Shown here piece by piece: positions 1,798 to 21,912 of a stretch of DNA of 29,997 nucleotides (the stretch's first letter is position 1; every line of letters begins with the position of its first letter). The notes beneath the pieces were generated by a model, which ran no database searches, was not told the origin of the DNA, and saw only the letters and a program-made list of their open reading frames with translations. Made by a program: the position numbers and the translations under genes. Source of the DNA: a virus; the IMG/VR virus record IMGVR_UViG_3300024229_000021, positions 1 through 29,997 of that record, one strand, 5' to 3'.

Positions 1798-3987
1798 TTA
1801 ATTACCTTTATCTTCTCTTTGGTCTTTAGTTTTTTTAGGAAACTCTCTCAATACACCTCTCATTGTCTGTGTCATTTTTCCCTGACTGAATAAACTGTTA
1901 ACATGTGTTAGTTTGTATATTAATCCTCTTGTAGATTCTGTTCCGTCAGTAAACAAAGGATCTAATAATTTTGCACCACCGGTTTGTGCATCATAGTCTT
2001 CCATAGTTCTAAAGTTAACTCCGACTAATACGTCTTGACTGTCATAGTTAATAGAACCATCTGGCATAAATGCTCCAAACGTATTTCCACTGTCGTACAT
2101 TATATCATTTTGCATAATATAATCTGGATCACCCATAACTGTCATTTCAAATGTTGCAAAATCAACTGTTGAATAAATTACCTCTGCGGCCTGTTCTGCA
2201 GGACTTGCAATAGCATCTGGTTGGCCCAAACCTGTTGTGTCTTGATTAACAAATGACTTAGGTGTGCTGTTTTCTATTTCAGGACCAAACTCCTGTTTGT
2301 CCAATGGTATCTTACCATCTACTGGAACAAAGTATGTCGCATTTAGATCTTGTTGATAATCTAACACTTCTGTATTCTCTCCAGTAAACCAATAGTTATA
2401 TGCTTTGTGTACTCCAGTAAAGTCTGATTTATTAAAATAAGGAGAGTAAGTTTCAACTACTTTTTTTGGTGATACTACGTATTCTATTTCGTAAGCATAG
2501 TCACCTCTTTTCTCGTCCCAGGCTATAGGACTAACATTTACACCTACGTGCCACCATTTCAATGATTTAGAATAATCAGTTGATTGAGTCTGCGTACCAT
2601 CGGGATTCTCAACCCATTTTTGTTGTTTCTGTGTCCACTCACTTGCCCTAAGTAGTATGTCAATCAGTTGAGGAATTTGTTGTCCTGCAGGTATTGAAAA
2701 TATTTGTCTTGTTTTATCCATCGATGTATTGTTCAACAGTGCATTTGCTGATCTACCCGAAGATTGATTCATTGCTGTTCTATTCTTAAATGCTTTTTCT
2801 GCAACACCGGCTATAATTCTCTGTTTACCAATGTCACCTTTAAACGTAACTCGATATCGATCTGCTTGTTCAAATTGTCCTTTAGTTTTTAACTTGTCGG
2901 CTTGCTTGTTCAGTTCAACCATAATACCTTTAGTGATAGCTGAGCCGCCTGCTGAGTCTCGTAGTATACCTGGAGTAACTTTTCCTGGTTGTGGTCGTCC
3001 ACCAAATGCTTGCGGGTAGTTATACACAGGTTCTTCTGTAATTGTTTGATCAAAGCTACGTTGTGTTTCAACAGACTTAGCATTAAAAATGTCTTCCATT
3101 GATTGCCCAAGTACTTCAACGTTGAAAGGAACTGTTGCTCGCTTTGCTGAAAGAGCTATGCCATGATTAATTGCTATTGCTTGACAGTCGTATGTGATTG
3201 CTCCTGTAGCTACTTTTGAATTTATTTTTTGAAACATAAATGGAATAAACTTTGTCATTCTATCGTCCATTTCGTCACTGACTTGTTTACCGTTTTCATC
3301 ATAACCTTTATACTTAATAACCATGATGTAGTGCTGTCTTACAAAGTCTTTAAGACCGTTGTCTGCACATAAGTTTTTTAATTTAGTAAGAAATGTATAT
3401 CCCATTGGCTCAATGATCTTAAATGACATTGTTAATACATTATGTGGTGCGGAATTTGCCGCTGGCATTAATCCTTGTATTTCTAAATCATCAATAAAAA
3501 GATCAGGAAAGATTGCGTCTTCGTTCACATTGTTTCCACCACTTTGTAATATCTTACTAAGTCCCTGTGTTGTTTTTTTACCTTCTGCTCTTAAACGACT
3601 ATACTGTTCAGGACTTGCTAGATATAAACCAATGTTATACGTTAGCTGTGCATACTTAGTTGTTGGATTATCACTAGGATCAAACGCTTGTTCAAACGCT
3701 TGCTCAAAATTTACAAAGTTAGTACCACCAACAACTGCTACTGTTTCAGCTTTGTCGTCACTACTGGCGGAACTACCATTTTCTAAAACACCGTCTGTTA
3801 ACGGATTTAAATTACCAACTTCCGCGGCGTCGTTGCGAATCTTAACAGTATCAGCATTTGCCTCTACTACAGTTTCTCCTGGAGGTGATCCTAAATGACT
3901 AGGATAAGGAGTTTGTGTTCCTGCTCCTTCTTTTTTTGCAAGAGCTTCACTGTCAACGATTGCACCAGATGATGTACGTTCGGCCAT
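1798..3987 (-). CDS. large baseplate hub protein, gp27-like candidate
   Basis: This 729-residue protein has an N-terminal 75 residues that look disordered and rich in Ala, Gly, Ser and Thr. The remainder is mixed alpha/beta with no signal peptide or membrane segment. Conspicuous stretches are DLFIDDLEIQGLMPAANSAP, the YTFLTKLKNLCADNGLKDF segment, WWHVGVNVSPIAWDEKRGDY, and a C-terminal LTHVNSLFSQGKMTQTMRGV. That last ending resembles the beta-strand end of gp27/tail-tube-type hub proteins, which form the platform for the gp5 spike. Its place directly before the gp5-like gene, as in the T4 27-5 pairing, supports a hub role. It starts one base after the gp53 stop, with an AGGA ribosome site inside the end of gp53. 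It is larger than T4 gp27 (391 residues), so the assignment rests on context and general fold impression rather than a recognised motif. Confidence 0.55.
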   Translation of the reverse strand: MAERTSSGAIVDSEALAKKEGAGTQTPYPSHLGSPPGETVVEANADTVKIRNDAAEVGNLNPLTDGVLENGSSASSDDKAETVAVVGGTNFVNFEQAFEQAFDPSDNPTTKYAQLTYNIGLYLASPEQYSRLRAEGKKTTQGLSKILQSGGNNVNEDAIFPDLFIDDLEIQGLMPAANSAPHNVLTMSFKIIEPMGYTFLTKLKNLCADNGLKDFVRQHYIMVIKYKGYDENGKQVSDEMDDRMTKFIPFMFQKINSKVATGAITYDCQAIAINHGIALSAKRATVPFNVEVLGQSMEDIFNAKSVETQRSFDQTITEEPVYNYPQAFGGRPQPGKVTPGILRDSAGGSAITKGIMVELNKQADKLKTKGQFEQADRYRVTFKGDIGKQRIIAGVAEKAFKNRTAMNQSSGRSANALLNNTSMDKTRQIFSIPAGQQIPQLIDILLRASEWTQKQQKWVENPDGTQTQSTDYSKSLKWWHVGVNVSPIAWDEKRGDYAYEIEYVVSPKKVVETYSPYFNKSDFTGVHKAYNYWFTGENTEVLDYQQDLNATYFVPVDGKIPLDKQEFGPEIENSTPKSFVNQDTTGLGQPDAIASPAEQAAEVIYSTVDFATFEMTVMGDPDYIMQNDIMYDSGNTFGAFMPDGSINYDSQDVLVGVNFRTMEDYDAQTGGAKLLDPLFTDGTESTRGLIYKLTHVNSLFSQGKMTQTMRGVLREFPKKTKDQREDKGN

Positions 3988-3988
3988 A

Positions 3989-4288
3989 TTAGATTCCTAA
4001 TGCAGTATTAAGTGTTGATTGTTTTGGAAGATATATTTTTAACCCGGCTTTAAAGTCCCATATTGGGTCTTTAATAGCATTAGGATTACGTGAAGCAAAT
4101 ACCCACCATAGACCTGGGTCACCATACAAGTCGTTGGCTAATAAGTCTGGACGGTATTGGTATGTTTGATTAAGTTCAACTATTTGGTCGTCTTCTTCTT
4201 TTGGAATATTACGATTAACCATAATGTCTAAGTATCCATCTGCCATTGCAGTTTCAAAATAAGGTGATGTTTGTTGATAAGTTGCCAT
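3989..4288 (-). CDS. 53: baseplate wedge subunit gp53
   Basis: The protein is about 99 residues. It matches the gp53 baseplate wedge family, which joins neighbouring wedges into the hexagonal baseplate around the hub. The recognisable pattern is a short N-terminus (YQQTSPYFETA), then YQYRPDLLANDLYGDPGLWW and VFASRNPNAIKDPIWDFKAG, ending in a LysM-like LKIYLPKQ strand. T4 gp53 is longer (196 residues); the compact form is common in marine relatives. I start it at the ATG at 4288 rather than the ATG at 4294. The AGAGGA ribosome site is 8 bases before the former but only 2 before the latter. The chosen ATG overlaps the stop of the upstream gene by one base (TAATG), implying translational coupling inside the baseplate operon. 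Confidence 0.85.
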   Translation of the reverse strand: MATYQQTSPYFETAMADGYLDIMVNRNIPKEEDDQIVELNQTYQYRPDLLANDLYGDPGLWWVFASRNPNAIKDPIWDFKAGLKIYLPKQSTLNTALGI

Positions 4289-5454
4289 TACCATTGTCCT
4301 CTCTGTGATAGTCCTTGACCGCTAGCATAATCCTTAAGACTGAATTGTCTACTTTGTTCTTCTCTTGTTACTATTGGTAATAATATTATGCTTAATTCTA
4401 TTTTTGTAGGAACATAAGTTGCTCCTGATTTTGCTAGATTTGTTCCTTCATTTGCTGTTCGAAATCCTTGTTCAGCACCAACATCAGCACCTATACCAAA
4501 TAGTCTGCCAATACGTGATGCAATTCCAAACATACCATAATTGCCTGAACCACCATTTAGTCTTGCTCTTGTTTGTTGTGCCTCAATACTTCCATACCCT
4601 GCTACACTTGTTCTGATGTAGTCCACATTATCTGGCAGAGAATAGTTAAATTGACTTACTACTGCTTTATGATAGTTAAATTGATCAGGACCAAATCCTG
4701 TAACACTTAATAGTGGAGGAGGTGTTCCTTTATTTTGATCTTGTCCATAAAACATTTTTGACGCAGATTTAAAAAAGTGTATGACTGCCATTAGATAATC
4801 TGCTTCTTCTGTTGACTGTGCTGTAAATGTAGCATTAATTTGTACGTCACTTATCTCACTGCTTTGATAAAAGTAAGTAGGATAATTAGAATGTGTTGGT
4901 GTTGTTTTATCATAGTTTGCACGATAGTTAACTAACACATTTGGTGTATATGGAAATATTACTCCATCTGTTTTTATTAACGGAGCAAGTATACTGTACT
5001 CATCGCCGTCTTTATATAATACATCACTGCCAGGCATCAGCCCAACTTTAAATCGCCAATCTTCAGAAAATGCTTTATTGCTAGCAGAAACATTTACAGT
5101 ATCAGTTACTGATCCTAATTGTTTAATTTGTTGATTAGTTCCGGCTTGATCTGGGCCTGTTCCAGTAGGAGTACTAAAGTTTGGGCCTATCTGGTCACTT
5201 GGTGATATTGCACGGTCACCCGGAACCTGACTGCCTGTACCAACTCCAGTAAAGTCTGGCTGTGGTGCAGGTGCCGTAATAGCACGACTACCTGGTACTT
5301 GACTGCCTGTAGCAACTCCAGTAAAGTCTGGCTGTGGTGCAGGTGTCGTAATAGCACGTTCGCCTGGCACTTGACTACCTGTAGCAACTCCAGTAAAGTT
5401 TGGAGCAACAGGTGCAGTGTTTACTTTCTTTTCATTTATTGGATCTTGAGCCAT
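4288..5454 (-). CDS. tail-tube cap/initiator, gp48/gp54-type
   Basis: The first roughly 110 residues are low-complexity and include three copies of a 24-residue repeat (core FTGVATGSQVPGERAI). The rest looks like a tail-tube-related baseplate protein: RFKVGLMPGSDVLYKDGDEY, LIKTDGVIFPYTPNVLVNYR, and DVQINATFTAQSTEEADYLM followed by a helix AVIHFFKSASKMFYGQ. This pattern is what I associate with T4-like gp48/gp54 proteins, which cap the baseplate hub and start tube polymerisation; I cannot decide between the two. The C-terminus is hydrophilic and ends QRGQW. I prefer the ATG at 5454 because AGAGGA sits 6 bases before it; the in-frame ATG at 5475 has no ribosome site. It is the first gene of the minus-strand baseplate operon, 24 bases below a late-type promoter. 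Confidence 0.65.
   Translation of the reverse strand: MAQDPINEKKVNTAPVAPNFTGVATGSQVPGERAITTPAPQPDFTGVATGSQVPGSRAITAPAPQPDFTGVGTGSQVPGDRAISPSDQIGPNFSTPTGTGPDQAGTNQQIKQLGSVTDTVNVSASNKAFSEDWRFKVGLMPGSDVLYKDGDEYSILAPLIKTDGVIFPYTPNVLVNYRANYDKTTPTHSNYPTYFYQSSEISDVQINATFTAQSTEEADYLMAVIHFFKSASKMFYGQDQNKGTPPPLLSVTGFGPDQFNYHKAVVSQFNYSLPDNVDYIRTSVAGYGSIEAQQTRARLNGGSGNYGMFGIASRIGRLFGIGADVGAEQGFRTANEGTNLAKSGATYVPTKIELSIILLPIVTREEQSRQFSLKDYASGQGLSQRGQW
5171..5410 (-). repeat. 72-bp in-frame tandem repeat in the gp48/54-like gene
   Basis: The sequence CCAGTAAAGT recurs (plus strand) at 5246, 5318 and 5390, exactly 72 bases apart. The copies between are nearly identical, and a decayed partial unit lies near 5171-5245. 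Each unit encodes 24 residues with core FTGV.TGSQVPG.RAI and a Pro/Ala-rich spacer. The repeat leaves the frame intact and lengthens the N-terminal arm. Confidence 0.9.
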
Positions 5455-5477
5455 TCTATTTCCTCTGTTATACATAC

Positions 5478-11155: not shown

Positions 11156-11386
11156 TTACTTCTTATTCCAAATTGTGTATAAAACCCACACTGCAATTAA
11201 ACCAACTAAGCCTTCAGCTCCTAAAGATTTAACTACTCCAGTTACGTTACCAATTACGTTAACTTCTGGAAAAAACGGTATGTTACCTACGCCAAGTAGT
11301 TCTAATACGATAAACATCGCCATTAGTGATACAGCTACGTCAGCTATAGATGAACTCCATTTCTGAATGTTTTTTAATACTTCCAT
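11156..11386 (-). CDS. small two-helix membrane protein
   Basis: The protein has 76 residues. One hydrophobic segment is at about 16-35 (ADVAVSLMAMFIVLELLGVG) and a second at about 55-72 (GAEGLVGLIAVWVLYTI), separated by a short turn with EVNVIGNVTG, ending in NKK. Two helices, small size and late expression would suit a holin-like or other inner-membrane role, but no lysis enzyme is next to it and I do not recognise the family with certainty. The ribosome site AGGAGG lies 6 bases before the ATG and is the strongest in the window. Upstream are a late-type promoter (11490-11496) and a host-type promoter (11597-11625), so it may be made throughout infection. A strong terminator lies 38 bases after the stop. 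Confidence 0.7.
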   Translation of the reverse strand: MEVLKNIQKWSSSIADVAVSLMAMFIVLELLGVGNIPFFPEVNVIGNVTGVVKSLGAEGLVGLIAVWVLYTIWNKK

Positions 11387-11644: not shown

Positions 11645-11875
11645 CTAAAAGAAAGGCATTTTGGTTTTCTTTGTTGTCTCCATGTTATCTTTGATTATGT
11701 CGGAAATAATATCTCTTTCCTCCATTGATAAGTGCATTGCCTCAGTGTAACTCAGGCCCCCTCTCATGTACCAAGCCAATTTTAAACTTTCTTGTTTGAT
11801 TGATTTTGTTTCTTTTTCCATACCATCAACCAACTGTTCAATTTCTTCAGGGCTTGCGGTCAGGAGCCTTATACG
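11645..11875 (-). CDS. -1 frame extension of gp26: tail assembly chaperone-like domain
   Basis: This frame is open from inside the end of gp26 to 11645 and encodes 76 residues after the proposed slip: a start of RIRLLTASPEEIEQLVDG, then a helical part (SIKQESLKLAWYMRGGLSY, MSMEERD-type turn, IISDIIKDNMETTKK) ending KMPFF. Possible internal starts are a TTG at 11833 and an ATG at 11821, but neither has a ribosome site, and coding-like sequence continues upstream of both. This suggests synthesis by -1 frameshifting at 11875-11884, giving a 355-residue gp26 fusion. A short product plus a frameshifted long product is the pattern of tail assembly chaperones (lambda G/GT). The LAWYMRGGLSY...MEER pattern resembles such domains. 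Independent initiation cannot be excluded. Confidence 0.65.
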   Translation of the reverse strand, partial: RIRLLTASPEEIEQLVDGMEKETKSIKQESLKLAWYMRGGLSYTEAMHLSMEERDIISDIIKDNMETTKKTKMPFF

Positions 11876-12711
11876 AAAAAATTTGACATATCCAAGGTAA
11901 ATGGCTGTTCAAATCCTGTGTTACATTCTCTACATGTAATCTGTAATGGCTTCATTTCGCTTTGTCCACGAATACTTGTTAAATGATCCTGTATCTTTTT
12001 AAACAGCTTACGATCAATATTCTGCATAAACTCATTGATCTGTTGTCTATCTTCTACTACCTGGCCGCCAATGCTGATACTTTGTACACTTTCATTCATA
12101 GTGTTCATTGTCATCTTAGTTACTTCTGTTAGTGCCTCACTCATTGCTTTGAGTTTCTGCTCGTCTGTAACATTTTCTGCTTCACTAGTTAACTGAATAC
12201 GTTTTTGTTGCTCGAACTGTTTCTGTGCTGACTCGCTTATTTCGTGATAGTTAAGCGGCTTAAAAAATATCTCTAGATCATCAATGATAAGTTTTTTTGA
12301 AAAGTCTGGACTTCCATACTGATCAATAACATTTCGCAAGTCAAGTGCATAATCCTGTGCTTCATTACAATGTGGACAACTCACTGTCATTTCCATTTCA
12401 TGTCCATAACTAGCAATACGAATTGCTGTAAACAACATGTCAATGTCAACCTGTGGTATTACCCACGGGTCTTTGATATTTGGTACACAACTTTGAAATA
12501 GCTGTGCTACTGCTGATCCATTAAAAAGTGCATCAGGCGTTCTAGTAATGATTTCGTCCATAGCTGTCATAGGAAAGATAGGTATCTCGCCGTTGCTAGG
12601 AATATCAATACTGTCTTTTGGATAGTACTTACCCTCACTAGGCAGTTTAACATAAATGCTAGGCTGTCTAAAGTACTTTTGTAACGGGTTAGAACTTGTA
12701 TTTTGTACCAT
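11869..12711 (-). CDS. 26: baseplate hub assembly protein gp26-like
   Basis: This 280-residue protein belongs to the T4 gp26 baseplate hub assembly family. It begins SSNPLQKYFRQPSIYVKLPS and continues with GKYYPKD and IPIFPMTAMDEIITRTPDAL, a run I recognise from this family. It carries two Cys pairs, CPHC (112-115) and CREC (260-263), which together could bind one zinc ion, plus a helical middle part (157-215). I start it at the ATG at 12711. The frame is open to a GTG at 12744, but that would lie at the proposed transcript start. It sits 30 or so bases below a TATAAATA promoter and diverges from the tape-measure candidate. The last codons form a slippery run, so part of the product may be extended into the -1 frame. 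Confidence 0.8.
   Translation of the reverse strand: MVQNTSSNPLQKYFRQPSIYVKLPSEGKYYPKDSIDIPSNGEIPIFPMTAMDEIITRTPDALFNGSAVAQLFQSCVPNIKDPWVIPQVDIDMLFTAIRIASYGHEMEMTVSCPHCNEAQDYALDLRNVIDQYGSPDFSKKLIIDDLEIFFKPLNYHEISESAQKQFEQQKRIQLTSEAENVTDEQKLKAMSEALTEVTKMTMNTMNESVQSISIGGQVVEDRQQINEFMQNIDRKLFKKIQDHLTSIRGQSEMKPLQITCRECNTGFEQPFTLDMSNFFV
11875..11884 (-). promoter_or_regulatory. slippery site for programmed -1 frameshift
   Basis: On the minus strand the end of gp26 reads TCA AAT TTT TTC GTA TAA. It contains two overlapping X-XXY-YYZ heptamers, A-AAT-TTT (11884-11878) and T-TTT-TTC (11881-11875). Seven bases downstream GGCT (11868-11865) can pair with AGCC (11854-11851) as a possible stimulating hairpin. 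The zero-frame stop is only one codon beyond the site. Confidence 0.65.
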
Positions 12712-12722
12712 GGTTTTTTTCC

Positions 12723-12730
12723 GATAAATA
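12723..12730 (+). promoter_or_regulatory. late-type promoter for the tape-measure candidate
   Basis: GATAAATA reads rightward, 50 bases before the ATG at 12781. It lies between the gp26 start and the minus-strand TATAAATA at 12748-12755, so the two promoters face each other. Confidence 0.6.
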
Positions 12731-12747
12731 TTGTTACGTAACACTAA

Positions 12748-12755
12748 TATTTATA
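12748..12755 (-). promoter_or_regulatory. late promoter for gp26, perfect T4 consensus
   Basis: The minus strand reads TATAAATA exactly, followed by TTAG. It predicts a start near 12740 and a leader of about 30 bases before the gp26 ATG. Confidence 0.7.
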
Positions 12756-12780: not shown

Positions 12781-14784
12781 ATGGCAGATGAACAACAAGC
12801 ACTAGAAGAATTTACCAGAAAGATACAAGAAGCGGGCGGTGCCACGGATGGAATGATTAAAAATCTCAAAGACGCAGAAAACAGTCTTGGGAATTTTGCT
12901 AAAAAATCTGTAGCAGATGTAGCTAAAGGTGTGCAAAGCTTTGGTGGATCAGTTATTAACGGTAGTAAAAACTTTGATGCTTTACTGCCTGTAGTAGATG
13001 CTCTTGGATCAGCTATGGCTGGACTAGCAGGCGCAATTCCATTTGTCGGAGTTGGTGCCGCAAAGTTTGTTGAAGGTGCAACAGAAGCAAGTAAATTTTT
13101 AATCGGTGAGCTAGGTAAACAGGTAGGAACATTCCAAGAAGTCAGTAAGTCCGGTGTAATTGCCGCAGGCGGAATGACTGAATTTTCAAAACAAGCATTT
13201 GGTTCACGTTTAACTCTACAACAATTTAGTCGTGTGGTAACAGATAACAGCAAAGCATTAGCCGCAATGAGTGGTAGTGCATATGATGGAGTATCTGCAT
13301 TTAGTGAAGTAACTAGTGTGCTAACCGATGATCAGGGAATGTTTGCTAGACGACTAGGTATGTCAGCTGAAGAAATTAATGAAATGACAGCTGGATTCAT
13401 GAAACAACAAACTAGACTAGGTCGTACTCAAGGTAGAGGAACAGAACAGTTACTTGGAACAACCACAACATATATTAAAGAGTTAGATTTACTATCAAAA
13501 ATTACAGGTGAAAATAGACAAGAATTACAAAAACAACAAGAAGCAACACTGAGAGAAACTAGATTCTCTGCTATGGTTGCAGGCATGAAAGAAGAAGAAG
13601 GTAAAAAATTATTAGACTTTGTTAGTGTAATTGGTAGTTCAAGTCCAAGAATTGCCGCTGGTATGAAAGACTTACTAACTGCCGGAACTGCTACAACAGA
13701 AGAAGGTAGACAGTTAATGATGTTGAGTGGTGGTAGAGCACGAGACATTGCTAAACAACTACAGTCAGGAGCAATTGATCAAGTAACTGCAACTAAAATG
13801 TTGCAAGACGCAGTAGGACCAAACCTTGAACGATTTAGAGGTTTGTCAGCAATTTTAGGTGACTCAAACGAAATGACAGCAGGCTTTGCTGAAAACTTAG
13901 CGTTTGCAACAAGGGAACTTACTTCATATGCTGAACTAGTAGAACAATCCAATAAACAAATGGGCGGGTCAGACCCACTAATTGTTGATATGACGACAGC
14001 ACAGAAAAACATTGAAGACTTTGCAATGAGCCTAAACAAAGTCATTCTAGACATGATGCCTGCCACAGGCGAAATAGTAACTGTGTTAACAGACGGGTTG
14101 AAAAAAGTTACCAACATGGTAGACACTGGGTTTAAGATAGCAAAGGGTGAGATTACTGTAGCTGAAGCAGTGTTTCATGAGGTAAGTGGCAAAACAACTC
14201 CAGCAGAGTATCAAGAAAAAGCCAGACAAGAAATTACACAAAAAATTACTGAAGTAACACAACAAAGAAAAGATAACTTTTTAAAATTGGGCAAAGAATA
14301 CACTGCTGAAGACGAGGCTAAATCAAAACAGTACGCAATCAATAAGGTTAAATCTCAATATAGATTTCGTAATAGTAATATGATGGATGCTATTGATATA
14401 GTAAAAGACTCTTTTGCTCGAGGAGGAATTGCAAACTTTCCAAATACCGGTGCTCTAGCAATGTTGCATGGCACAGAAGCAGTAGTACCGTTACCAGACG
14501 GCAGATCAATACCAATCAGCATTAACACAGACGAAATGGCAAAAGCACTTAGTCCAACAGGAGTCGCAGGTGCTAATTCATCAACTCTACCAGGTGGCAT
14601 TACAGCAGATGCACTAACACCTGCAATGGCTACAGCAGTAAATGAAGTAAAGTCTGAAGCTAACACTTTAGCAAGTGCTGACAATGAGTTAATGCAAAAA
14701 CAAAATATCAAACTAGATGAACTAATTAGATTAATGGGCAAACAGGTATATGTGTCTGAGCAAACTCGCTCTCAATTAATGTAA
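12781..14784 (+). CDS. tail tape-measure protein candidate (gp29 position)
   Basis: This 667-residue protein is helix-rich with Lys/Glu/Gln/Ala composition. It has one hydrophobic stretch at about 68-95 (LLPVVDALGSAMAGLAGAIP onward), as tape-measure proteins often have. Near residues 545-580 it carries ARGGIANFPNTGALAMLHGT followed by EAVVPLPDGRSIPI, a motif typical of phage tape-measure C-terminal regions. Tape-measure proteins fix tail length and pass into the host with the DNA. T4 gp29 is 590 residues, a similar size. The neighbouring divergent gp26 and its frameshift extension would be its chaperones. It is expressed from the GATAAATA at 12723-12730. The assignment rests on composition, the C-terminal motif and context rather than clear homology to gp29. 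Confidence 0.65.
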   Translation: MADEQQALEEFTRKIQEAGGATDGMIKNLKDAENSLGNFAKKSVADVAKGVQSFGGSVINGSKNFDALLPVVDALGSAMAGLAGAIPFVGVGAAKFVEGATEASKFLIGELGKQVGTFQEVSKSGVIAAGGMTEFSKQAFGSRLTLQQFSRVVTDNSKALAAMSGSAYDGVSAFSEVTSVLTDDQGMFARRLGMSAEEINEMTAGFMKQQTRLGRTQGRGTEQLLGTTTTYIKELDLLSKITGENRQELQKQQEATLRETRFSAMVAGMKEEEGKKLLDFVSVIGSSSPRIAAGMKDLLTAGTATTEEGRQLMMLSGGRARDIAKQLQSGAIDQVTATKMLQDAVGPNLERFRGLSAILGDSNEMTAGFAENLAFATRELTSYAELVEQSNKQMGGSDPLIVDMTTAQKNIEDFAMSLNKVILDMMPATGEIVTVLTDGLKKVTNMVDTGFKIAKGEITVAEAVFHEVSGKTTPAEYQEKARQEITQKITEVTQQRKDNFLKLGKEYTAEDEAKSKQYAINKVKSQYRFRNSNMMDAIDIVKDSFARGGIANFPNTGALAMLHGTEAVVPLPDGRSIPISINTDEMAKALSPTGVAGANSSTLPGGITADALTPAMATAVNEVKSEANTLASADNELMQKQNIKLDELIRLMGKQVYVSEQTRSQLM

Positions 14785-21459: not shown

Positions 21460-21552
21460 TGCTAATTACACGGGGTAGTTAGTTTATGCTGTTTAACCAT
21501 ACCAGCGTAGTGGCTAGAACCCACAATGGACTTCTATAAGGAGAAATATAAA

Positions 21553-21912
21553 ATGGGTAGACCAATAGACAAATACTTTTTAGGCGCAACAGGCGGAGCA
21601 CCAGCAACAATTCCAGTAAGAGCGGACATTGGTGGTACAGACTTTGAAGGATATATTATATCACAAAAAGGTCGCGATACATTCAAAGTATCAAACGATG
21701 GTGATACAGTACAAGGTGAATGCACTTTAGTTAACAAACTTACAGGACATGACGACGGTGAAATGTCTATAGTAGGTATTGCTGACGGTGGTGATGCAGT
21801 TGCTATTCAAAAAATTACAGCTCATAGAGCAGTTGGATACAATGGCACAGTTTACACTTGGGCAGTTGCAGATGACTCATCTGAATCATTACTAAGACTT
21901 ACAGCTATATAA
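21553..21912 (+). CDS. small probable virion protein, function unknown
   Basis: This 119-residue protein begins GRPIDKYFLGATGGAPATIP and is predicted by eye to be all beta (VRADIGGTDFEGYIISQKGR, TVQGECTLVNKL). It has no catalytic motif or membrane segment. The size and composition would suit a capsid decoration or tail accessory protein, but I do not recognise it with certainty. I choose the ATG at 21553 because AAGGAG lies 9 bases before it; the in-frame ATG at 21526 has no ribosome site. It has its own late-type promoter and is closed by a strong terminator, so it forms a single-gene late unit that is probably well expressed. Confidence 0.6.
   Translation: MGRPIDKYFLGATGGAPATIPVRADIGGTDFEGYIISQKGRDTFKVSNDGDTVQGECTLVNKLTGHDDGEMSIVGIADGGDAVAIQKITAHRAVGYNGTVYTWAVADDSSESLLRLTAI

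Follow-up and report, generated by a model that had tools for sequence, protein, structure and literature searches.

The 3' end of gene 26 in the window (the whole stretch of viral DNA analysed here, 29,997 nucleotides of IMG/VR record IMGVR_UViG_3300024229_000021) carries a programmed -1 frameshift, which was confirmed as real by comparison with related phages, and by which a fusion of 355 residues (279 + 76) would be made besides the shorter gp26. These two products are very probably the short and long tail assembly chaperones for a probable tape measure protein, which is encoded head-to-head with gene 26. The features concerned are listed in Table 1.

Table 1. Features of the gene 26 region of the window, with strand and the basis of each assignment.
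Feature	Position	Strand	Basis
Slippery heptamer T TTT TTC, -1 frameshift site	11881-11875	-	TTT TT(C/T/G) in 74/74 non-redundant loci; TTTTTTC in 80/80 cyanophage-type loci
Second, overlapping heptamer A AAT TTT	11884-11878	-	Sequence
Zero-frame stop TAA of gp26	11871-11869	-	Sequence
gp26, putative short tail assembly chaperone (TAC-N), 280 aa, T4_baseplate family	11869..12711	-	PF12322, phrog_150, AF2 model
-1 frame extension, 76 codons + stop, putative C-terminal domain of the long chaperone (TAC-NC), predicted all-helical	11645..11875	-	tblastn, open frame, hhalign, AF2
Tape measure protein (probable), 667 aa, divergent from gp26 in head-to-head orientation	12781..14784	+	Homologous divergent ORF in most relatives; PA5oct copy recorded as detected in virions; phrog_14121
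Late-promoter-like TATAAATA towards gp26	12748..12755	-	Motif towards gp26 in 36/42 loci
Late-promoter-like GATAAATA towards the tape-measure candidate	12723..12730	+	Motif towards the divergent gene in 38/42 loci

Slip site, -1 frame and their conservation

On the minus strand gene 26 ends with TCA AAT TTT TTC GTA TAA, and the -1 frame (RIRLLTASPEE...) runs without interruption between 11875 and a stop at 11647-11645, so that the slippery run, the open frame and the 355-residue fusion of the original prediction are read directly from the sequence. The extension protein has 76 residues (RIRLLTASPEEIEQ...KMPFF), and gp26 itself contains two CxxC motifs. The original prediction allowed the downstream ORF only one internal ATG, which was wrong, as in-frame ATGs are located at residues 19, 37, 47 and others. 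Its further point, that this ORF has no usable ribosome site, was borne out by the first possible starts, TTG (residue 15) and ATG (residue 19), both without a Shine-Dalgarno sequence. Coding likewise continues upstream of the internal starts, as judged by the substitutions in the initial stretch of the extension, ahead of the first start in the window, which favour third positions of the -1 frame (229/174/354), and by tblastn matches from extension residue 1 onwards. Downstream of the extension and on the same strand, a 76-aa ORF with hydrophobic stretches and no family match is located at 11156-11386.

Searches by tblastn with gp26 matched 65 phage records, nearly all of jumbo myophages (PA5oct, Atu_ph07, GAP32, RaK2, 121Q, SCTP-2 and others). 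With the 76-residue extension, matches were obtained in Atu_ph07 (4e-10), Phosso (2e-9) and, weakly, SCTP-2 (E 0.8), each of which starts at residue 1 and lies in the -1 frame with respect to gp26. The extension matches begin upstream of any start codon in hundreds of cyanophages as well as in Atu_ph07 and Phosso. The loci were collected as a same-clade set of 42 non-redundant loci (mostly from jumbo phages, with gp26 identity of 23-100%, from sources including 41 and further IMG/VR contigs) and a distant set of 32 loci (cyano-, pelagi-, methylophage, rhizobiophage, Vibrio and Aeh1), the two sets together comprising 74 non-redundant loci.

TTT TT(C/T/G) was present near the end of gp26 in 42/42 same-clade and 32/32 more distant loci, and in the same clade TTT TTC or TTT TTT was located 0 to 14 codons before the gp26 stop in all 42. 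The first phenylalanine codon of the slip site is TTT in 74/74 genes, with TTC making up 24-39% of the phenylalanine codons elsewhere in gp26. Within the first 50 codons of the -1 frame no stop was found in the 74 loci, and the other two frames of the same stretch held 195 and 202 stops, respectively, in the 42-locus clade; a single 50-codon open stretch would be expected by chance at about 3% at the composition of the clade. Same-clade extensions are 70-80 residues long where complete. HTVC008M (Pelagibacter), Melnitz, pf16, Rhizobium IC12 and RL38J1, Ochrobactrum ORM_20, Vibrio K571 and Aeromonas Aeh1 carry T TTT TT(C/T/G) together with a -1 frame that is open for 55-65 codons past the gp26 stop, the run being of seven T and not six in HTVC008M and a few others. 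Among the cyanophage-type contigs, 80/80 contain TTTTTTC. The alignment check on relatives was thus passed by every locus of both collections, and the conservation of the slip site and of the open -1 frame is far beyond chance.

Several variants were observed among these relatives. In the Straboviridae member Aeromonas phage Aeh1, gene 26 has retained TTT TTC, and its stop is followed by 56 codons of -1 extension that are unannotated in the record region. Cygsa01, Vibrio K469 and the Kuttervirus (Salmonella phage) Mutine have a -1-frame extension after gp26 and no heptamer; a stop-start overlap (TAATG or TAATGATG) is found in Cygsa01 and Vibrio K469, and Mutine has no nearby ATG, GTG or TTG start. 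All of the cyanophage-type contigs inspected keep an ATG two bases past the gp26 stop in the -1 frame, and a free C-terminal domain might therefore be made there besides the fusion.

Folding downstream of the slip site was estimated for the 60 bases from five bases after it, with control windows of the same genes for comparison. The GGCT/AGCC hairpin of the original prediction was rejected as a stimulator: a 4-bp stem is possible on paper, but the downstream minimum-energy fold does not contain it, and it is not conserved in close relatives. The window's own downstream folds gave z values of -0.8 to +0.2, with no significant hairpin at the slip site. As a group, the loci have more downstream structure than the controls (mean z of -1.33 and -1.74 versus -0.28 and -0.37), and about 40% of them fold below z -2. 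RNA structure may help the slip in some members and is not a fixed part of the site.

Protein families and the relation to T4 gp26 and gp51

The window's gp26 matched the PF12322 profile with 67.9 bits (curated cut-off 24.5; E 1.3e-18) and phrog_150 with E 3.8e-23; a PDB sequence search with the gp26 profile returned nothing, and NCBIfam gave nothing above its cut-offs. The AF2 model of gp26 (pLDDT 87) matches predicted T4-type gp26 structures in BFVD (best E 5.5e-25). Among solved structures no PDB match to this model was found at E <0.3, tail chaperones (HK97 gp13 and relatives) included, which does not exclude a chaperone function because the known tail chaperones are highly diverged, as stated by Pell et al. 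(2013). The extension was modelled with pLDDT 86.7 as two long helices (9-38 and 51-71) and two short ones, for which a BFVD fold search returned nothing significant. The gp26 fold also matches uncharacterised proteins of 384-686 aa from the giant phages Erwinia Special G, phiEaH2, Ralstonia RSL1, RSF1 and RP12 (BFVD, E 1e-7 to 1e-4), and on these predicted models they are possible unrecognised tail chaperones.

T4 gp26 (208 aa) and gp51 (249 aa) both match PF12322, so that gp51 can be described as a gp26-like domain followed by its approximately 48 extra C-terminal residues. The family phrog_634 matches gp51 at residues 147-246, and it also matches the -1 extensions of cyanophage Sf-FS3 (4e-26) and HTVC008M (5e-19); cyanophage records label the downstream piece gp51 (hub assembly catalyst). 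By hhalign, cyanophage-type extensions were aligned to the gp51 C-terminus at 97% (E 1.8e-10, a single comparison) and window-type to cyanophage-type extensions at 80% (E 1.4e-5, also a single comparison), with reversed controls below 1%. The direct alignment of the window-type extension to the gp51 C-terminus is weak (45%), and the two are linked mainly via the cyanophage-type extensions. Compared at the sequence level, T4 gp26 and gp51 are paralogues, and the gp51 C-terminus is a homologue of the extension family.

In a tree of 49 sequences, drawn with a midpoint root and containing two long gp26 branches, gp26 and gp51 of T4-like phages form one group (97/91), although the gp26 side alone is weakly supported (66/54). 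The duplicated pair is nested beside the frameshifting Aeh1 and Vibrio K571 (88/90), and all other frameshifting lineages fall outside. This topology is consistent with a single duplication within Straboviridae, by which the frameshift was replaced. The arrangement of the pair varies, the gp51-like and gp26-like genes of RB43 (2501-3794 of the fetched region) being in tandem on one strand and those of T4 divergent.

It appears rather probable, on balance, that the T4-type superfamily as a whole, jumbo phages included, started out with a single frameshifted tail-chaperone gene, that this arrangement was replaced by duplication (26 + 51) in the T4 branch of Straboviridae and by overlapping start codons elsewhere, and that the gene and the tape measure are conserved as a divergent pair with back-to-back late promoters in the jumbo clade. 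The tree agrees with this in placing the T4 pair beside Aeh1, its root being a midpoint root only.

The divergent neighbour gene

A large divergent ORF is located near gp26 and head to head with it in most loci of the clade (632-974 aa where complete), Atu_ph07 and Vibrio 2.275.O being among the exceptions, and many of these ORFs are homologous to one another. The window's copy, starting at 12781, matches phrog_14121 (virion structural protein). No sequence match to the divergent ORFs was obtained with T4 gp29 or tape-measure profiles, and Pfam gave no match; homology to gp29 or to the HTVC008M or IC12 candidates was sought as an identification and not found. Hydrophobic segments were discarded as tape-measure evidence since they are present in some members only. 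HTVC008M has a clear tape measure two genes downstream, the genes following one another as gp26, extension, small ORF and tape measure.

The 798-aa copy of the divergent ORF in the PA5oct record is flagged as detected by mass spectrometry, and gp26 is not flagged. A tape measure protein accounts for 0.15 nm per residue. At this value the PA5oct copy corresponds to about 120 nm, compared with a reported tail of 136 nm (PMC3936114).

Both late-promoter-like motifs were found back to back in 33/42 loci, and in the window they lie within the 69-bp gap between the two genes. Motifs of this form are T4 late promoters. As the window also encodes a late sigma factor homologue, the paired motifs point to a shared late promoter region. 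The divergent neighbour (the 12781 product of the original prediction) is likely to be the tape measure, on the grounds of position, variable length, virion presence (PA5oct) and co-regulation and not of homology with gp29.

Two other features of the window were recorded. A freshwater-2 RNA (Rfam RF02980, 63.8 bits versus a gathering score of 49.9) is located at 21464-21555 in the + orientation, in and over the start of the ORF at 21526. The protein encoded at 4288-5475 (-) has QPDFTGVATGSQVPG-type repeats near its N-terminus and belongs with the virion structural proteins of phrog_12050.

Proposed two-form chaperone, alternatives and known systems

In the mechanism that we propose, most ribosomes would end at 11869 and release the 280-residue short form, and a minority would slip back one base on T TTT TTC, bypass the stop and add the 76-residue helical domain to give the 355-residue long form. 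The tape measure protein, which is probably the 667-aa product of the divergent gene under the back-to-back late promoter, would be coated by the short and the long form alike, and the added domain of the long form would bring in tail tube subunits in the manner of lambda GT. Straboviridae of the T4 branch would obtain the equivalent pair from separate genes, 26 for the short form and 51 for the long one. Slippage at a useful rate and all of the binding functions in this scheme are what we infer from the comparisons above, and by analogy the proteins may work like lambda G/GT. The assignment of gp26 and the fusion as short and long chaperones, already made in the original prediction, is supported by the conserved slip site and -1 frame, by the homology between the extensions and the C-terminus of gp51 and by the paralogy of gp26 and gp51; on the latter two grounds, gp26 and the fusion would be the counterparts of the short and long forms that have been proposed for T4-like phages.

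The extension could instead be a separate small gene, whose translation begins close to the stop of gp26 through reinitiation or translational coupling, as its annotation as a separate small ORF in many records, the ATG kept two bases after the stop in cyanophages and the TAATG or TAATGATG overlaps of the heptamer-less Cygsa01 and Vibrio K469 would suggest. In the window, however, the first start codon lies at residue 15 and lacks a Shine-Dalgarno sequence, starts scatter over residues 1-36 among relatives and are missing from PA5oct, the residues before the starts are conserved as protein, and the invariant heptamer would be unnecessary, all of which make such a gene very unlikely. Extremely improbable is slippage of the RNA polymerase on the T6 run, by which a share of the transcripts would be in the other frame: the run of six T, or seven in HTVC008M and a few others, is what speaks for it, but six bases are short for transcriptional slippage, and what is kept is the phase XXXYYYZ ending in C and not a longer homopolymer.

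A real frameshift would also be compatible with two forms that are parts of the baseplate hub and not chaperones of the tape measure. The family is named after the baseplate hub, and earlier genetic work assigned gp26 to the hub of T4 (PMC3004832). However, gp51 is needed for T4 assembly yet absent from the particle (PMC3004832), the mass-spectrometry flag in the PA5oct record is on the neighbour and not on gp26, and the architecture of two forms related by a -1 shift is that of tail chaperones; two hub components are accordingly considered unlikely, and the short and long chaperones remain the preferred reading.

This kind of system is already known, and the window's frameshift adds to it. 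In a review of the T4 tail, gp26 and gp51 are described as hub assembly chaperones, gp51 being essential, of unknown function and absent from the virion (PMC3004832). The tail chaperone genes of T4-like phages were identified by Vladimirov, Gautam and Davidson (2022), as cited in PMC10274946 and PMC12846349; in the summary given by the former, some T4-like phages do not frameshift but have one short gene and one long fusion gene, and the latter credits the same work with the poly-T slippery sequences in their TAC-N genes. No report tying a frameshift to gp26 of jumbo phages or cyanophages was found in the open-access literature searched, and the same holds for the frameshift of the jumbo clade, for the nested tree and for the divergent gene pair with its shared late motifs; the papers on jumbo-phage tails that were consulted make no mention of gp26 or a tape measure. 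T4 is the stated exception to the rule that long-tailed phages frameshift in the tail chaperone gene (PMC5009743); the frameshift is intact in T4's relatives, including Aeh1 of T4's own family, and many jumbo phage and cyanophage genomes gain a hidden C-terminal domain that is usually left without annotation or entered as a hypothetical gene of its own.

Compared with T4 gp26 (short) and gp51 (long fusion), the window's products share PF12322, phrog_150 and, in frameshifting relatives, the C-terminal family phrog_634, whereas T4 uses two genes and the window's phage one gene with a -1 frameshift. The cyanophages, with gp26 and a small gp51 (baseplate hub assembly catalyst), have the same TTTTTTC before the stop and a -1 extension homologous to the gp51 C-terminus, but differ in the conserved ATG after the stop, by which a separate start is also possible, and in a co-directional gene order. 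The tail chaperone frameshift of Vandenendeviridae and Andersonviridae (GTTTTT; PMC12846349) is alike in the contractile tails, the poly-T -1 slip and a -1 frame open for more than 200 bp; these phages are of a different lineage, and the likeness drawn here is one of tail, slip and frame. Lambda gpG/gpGT likewise has a short and a long form from one gene with a -1 shift near the 3' end, adjoining the tape-measure gene (a probable one in the window), although the slip and protein sequences are unrelated and the tape-measure candidate of the window is divergent where that of lambda is downstream.
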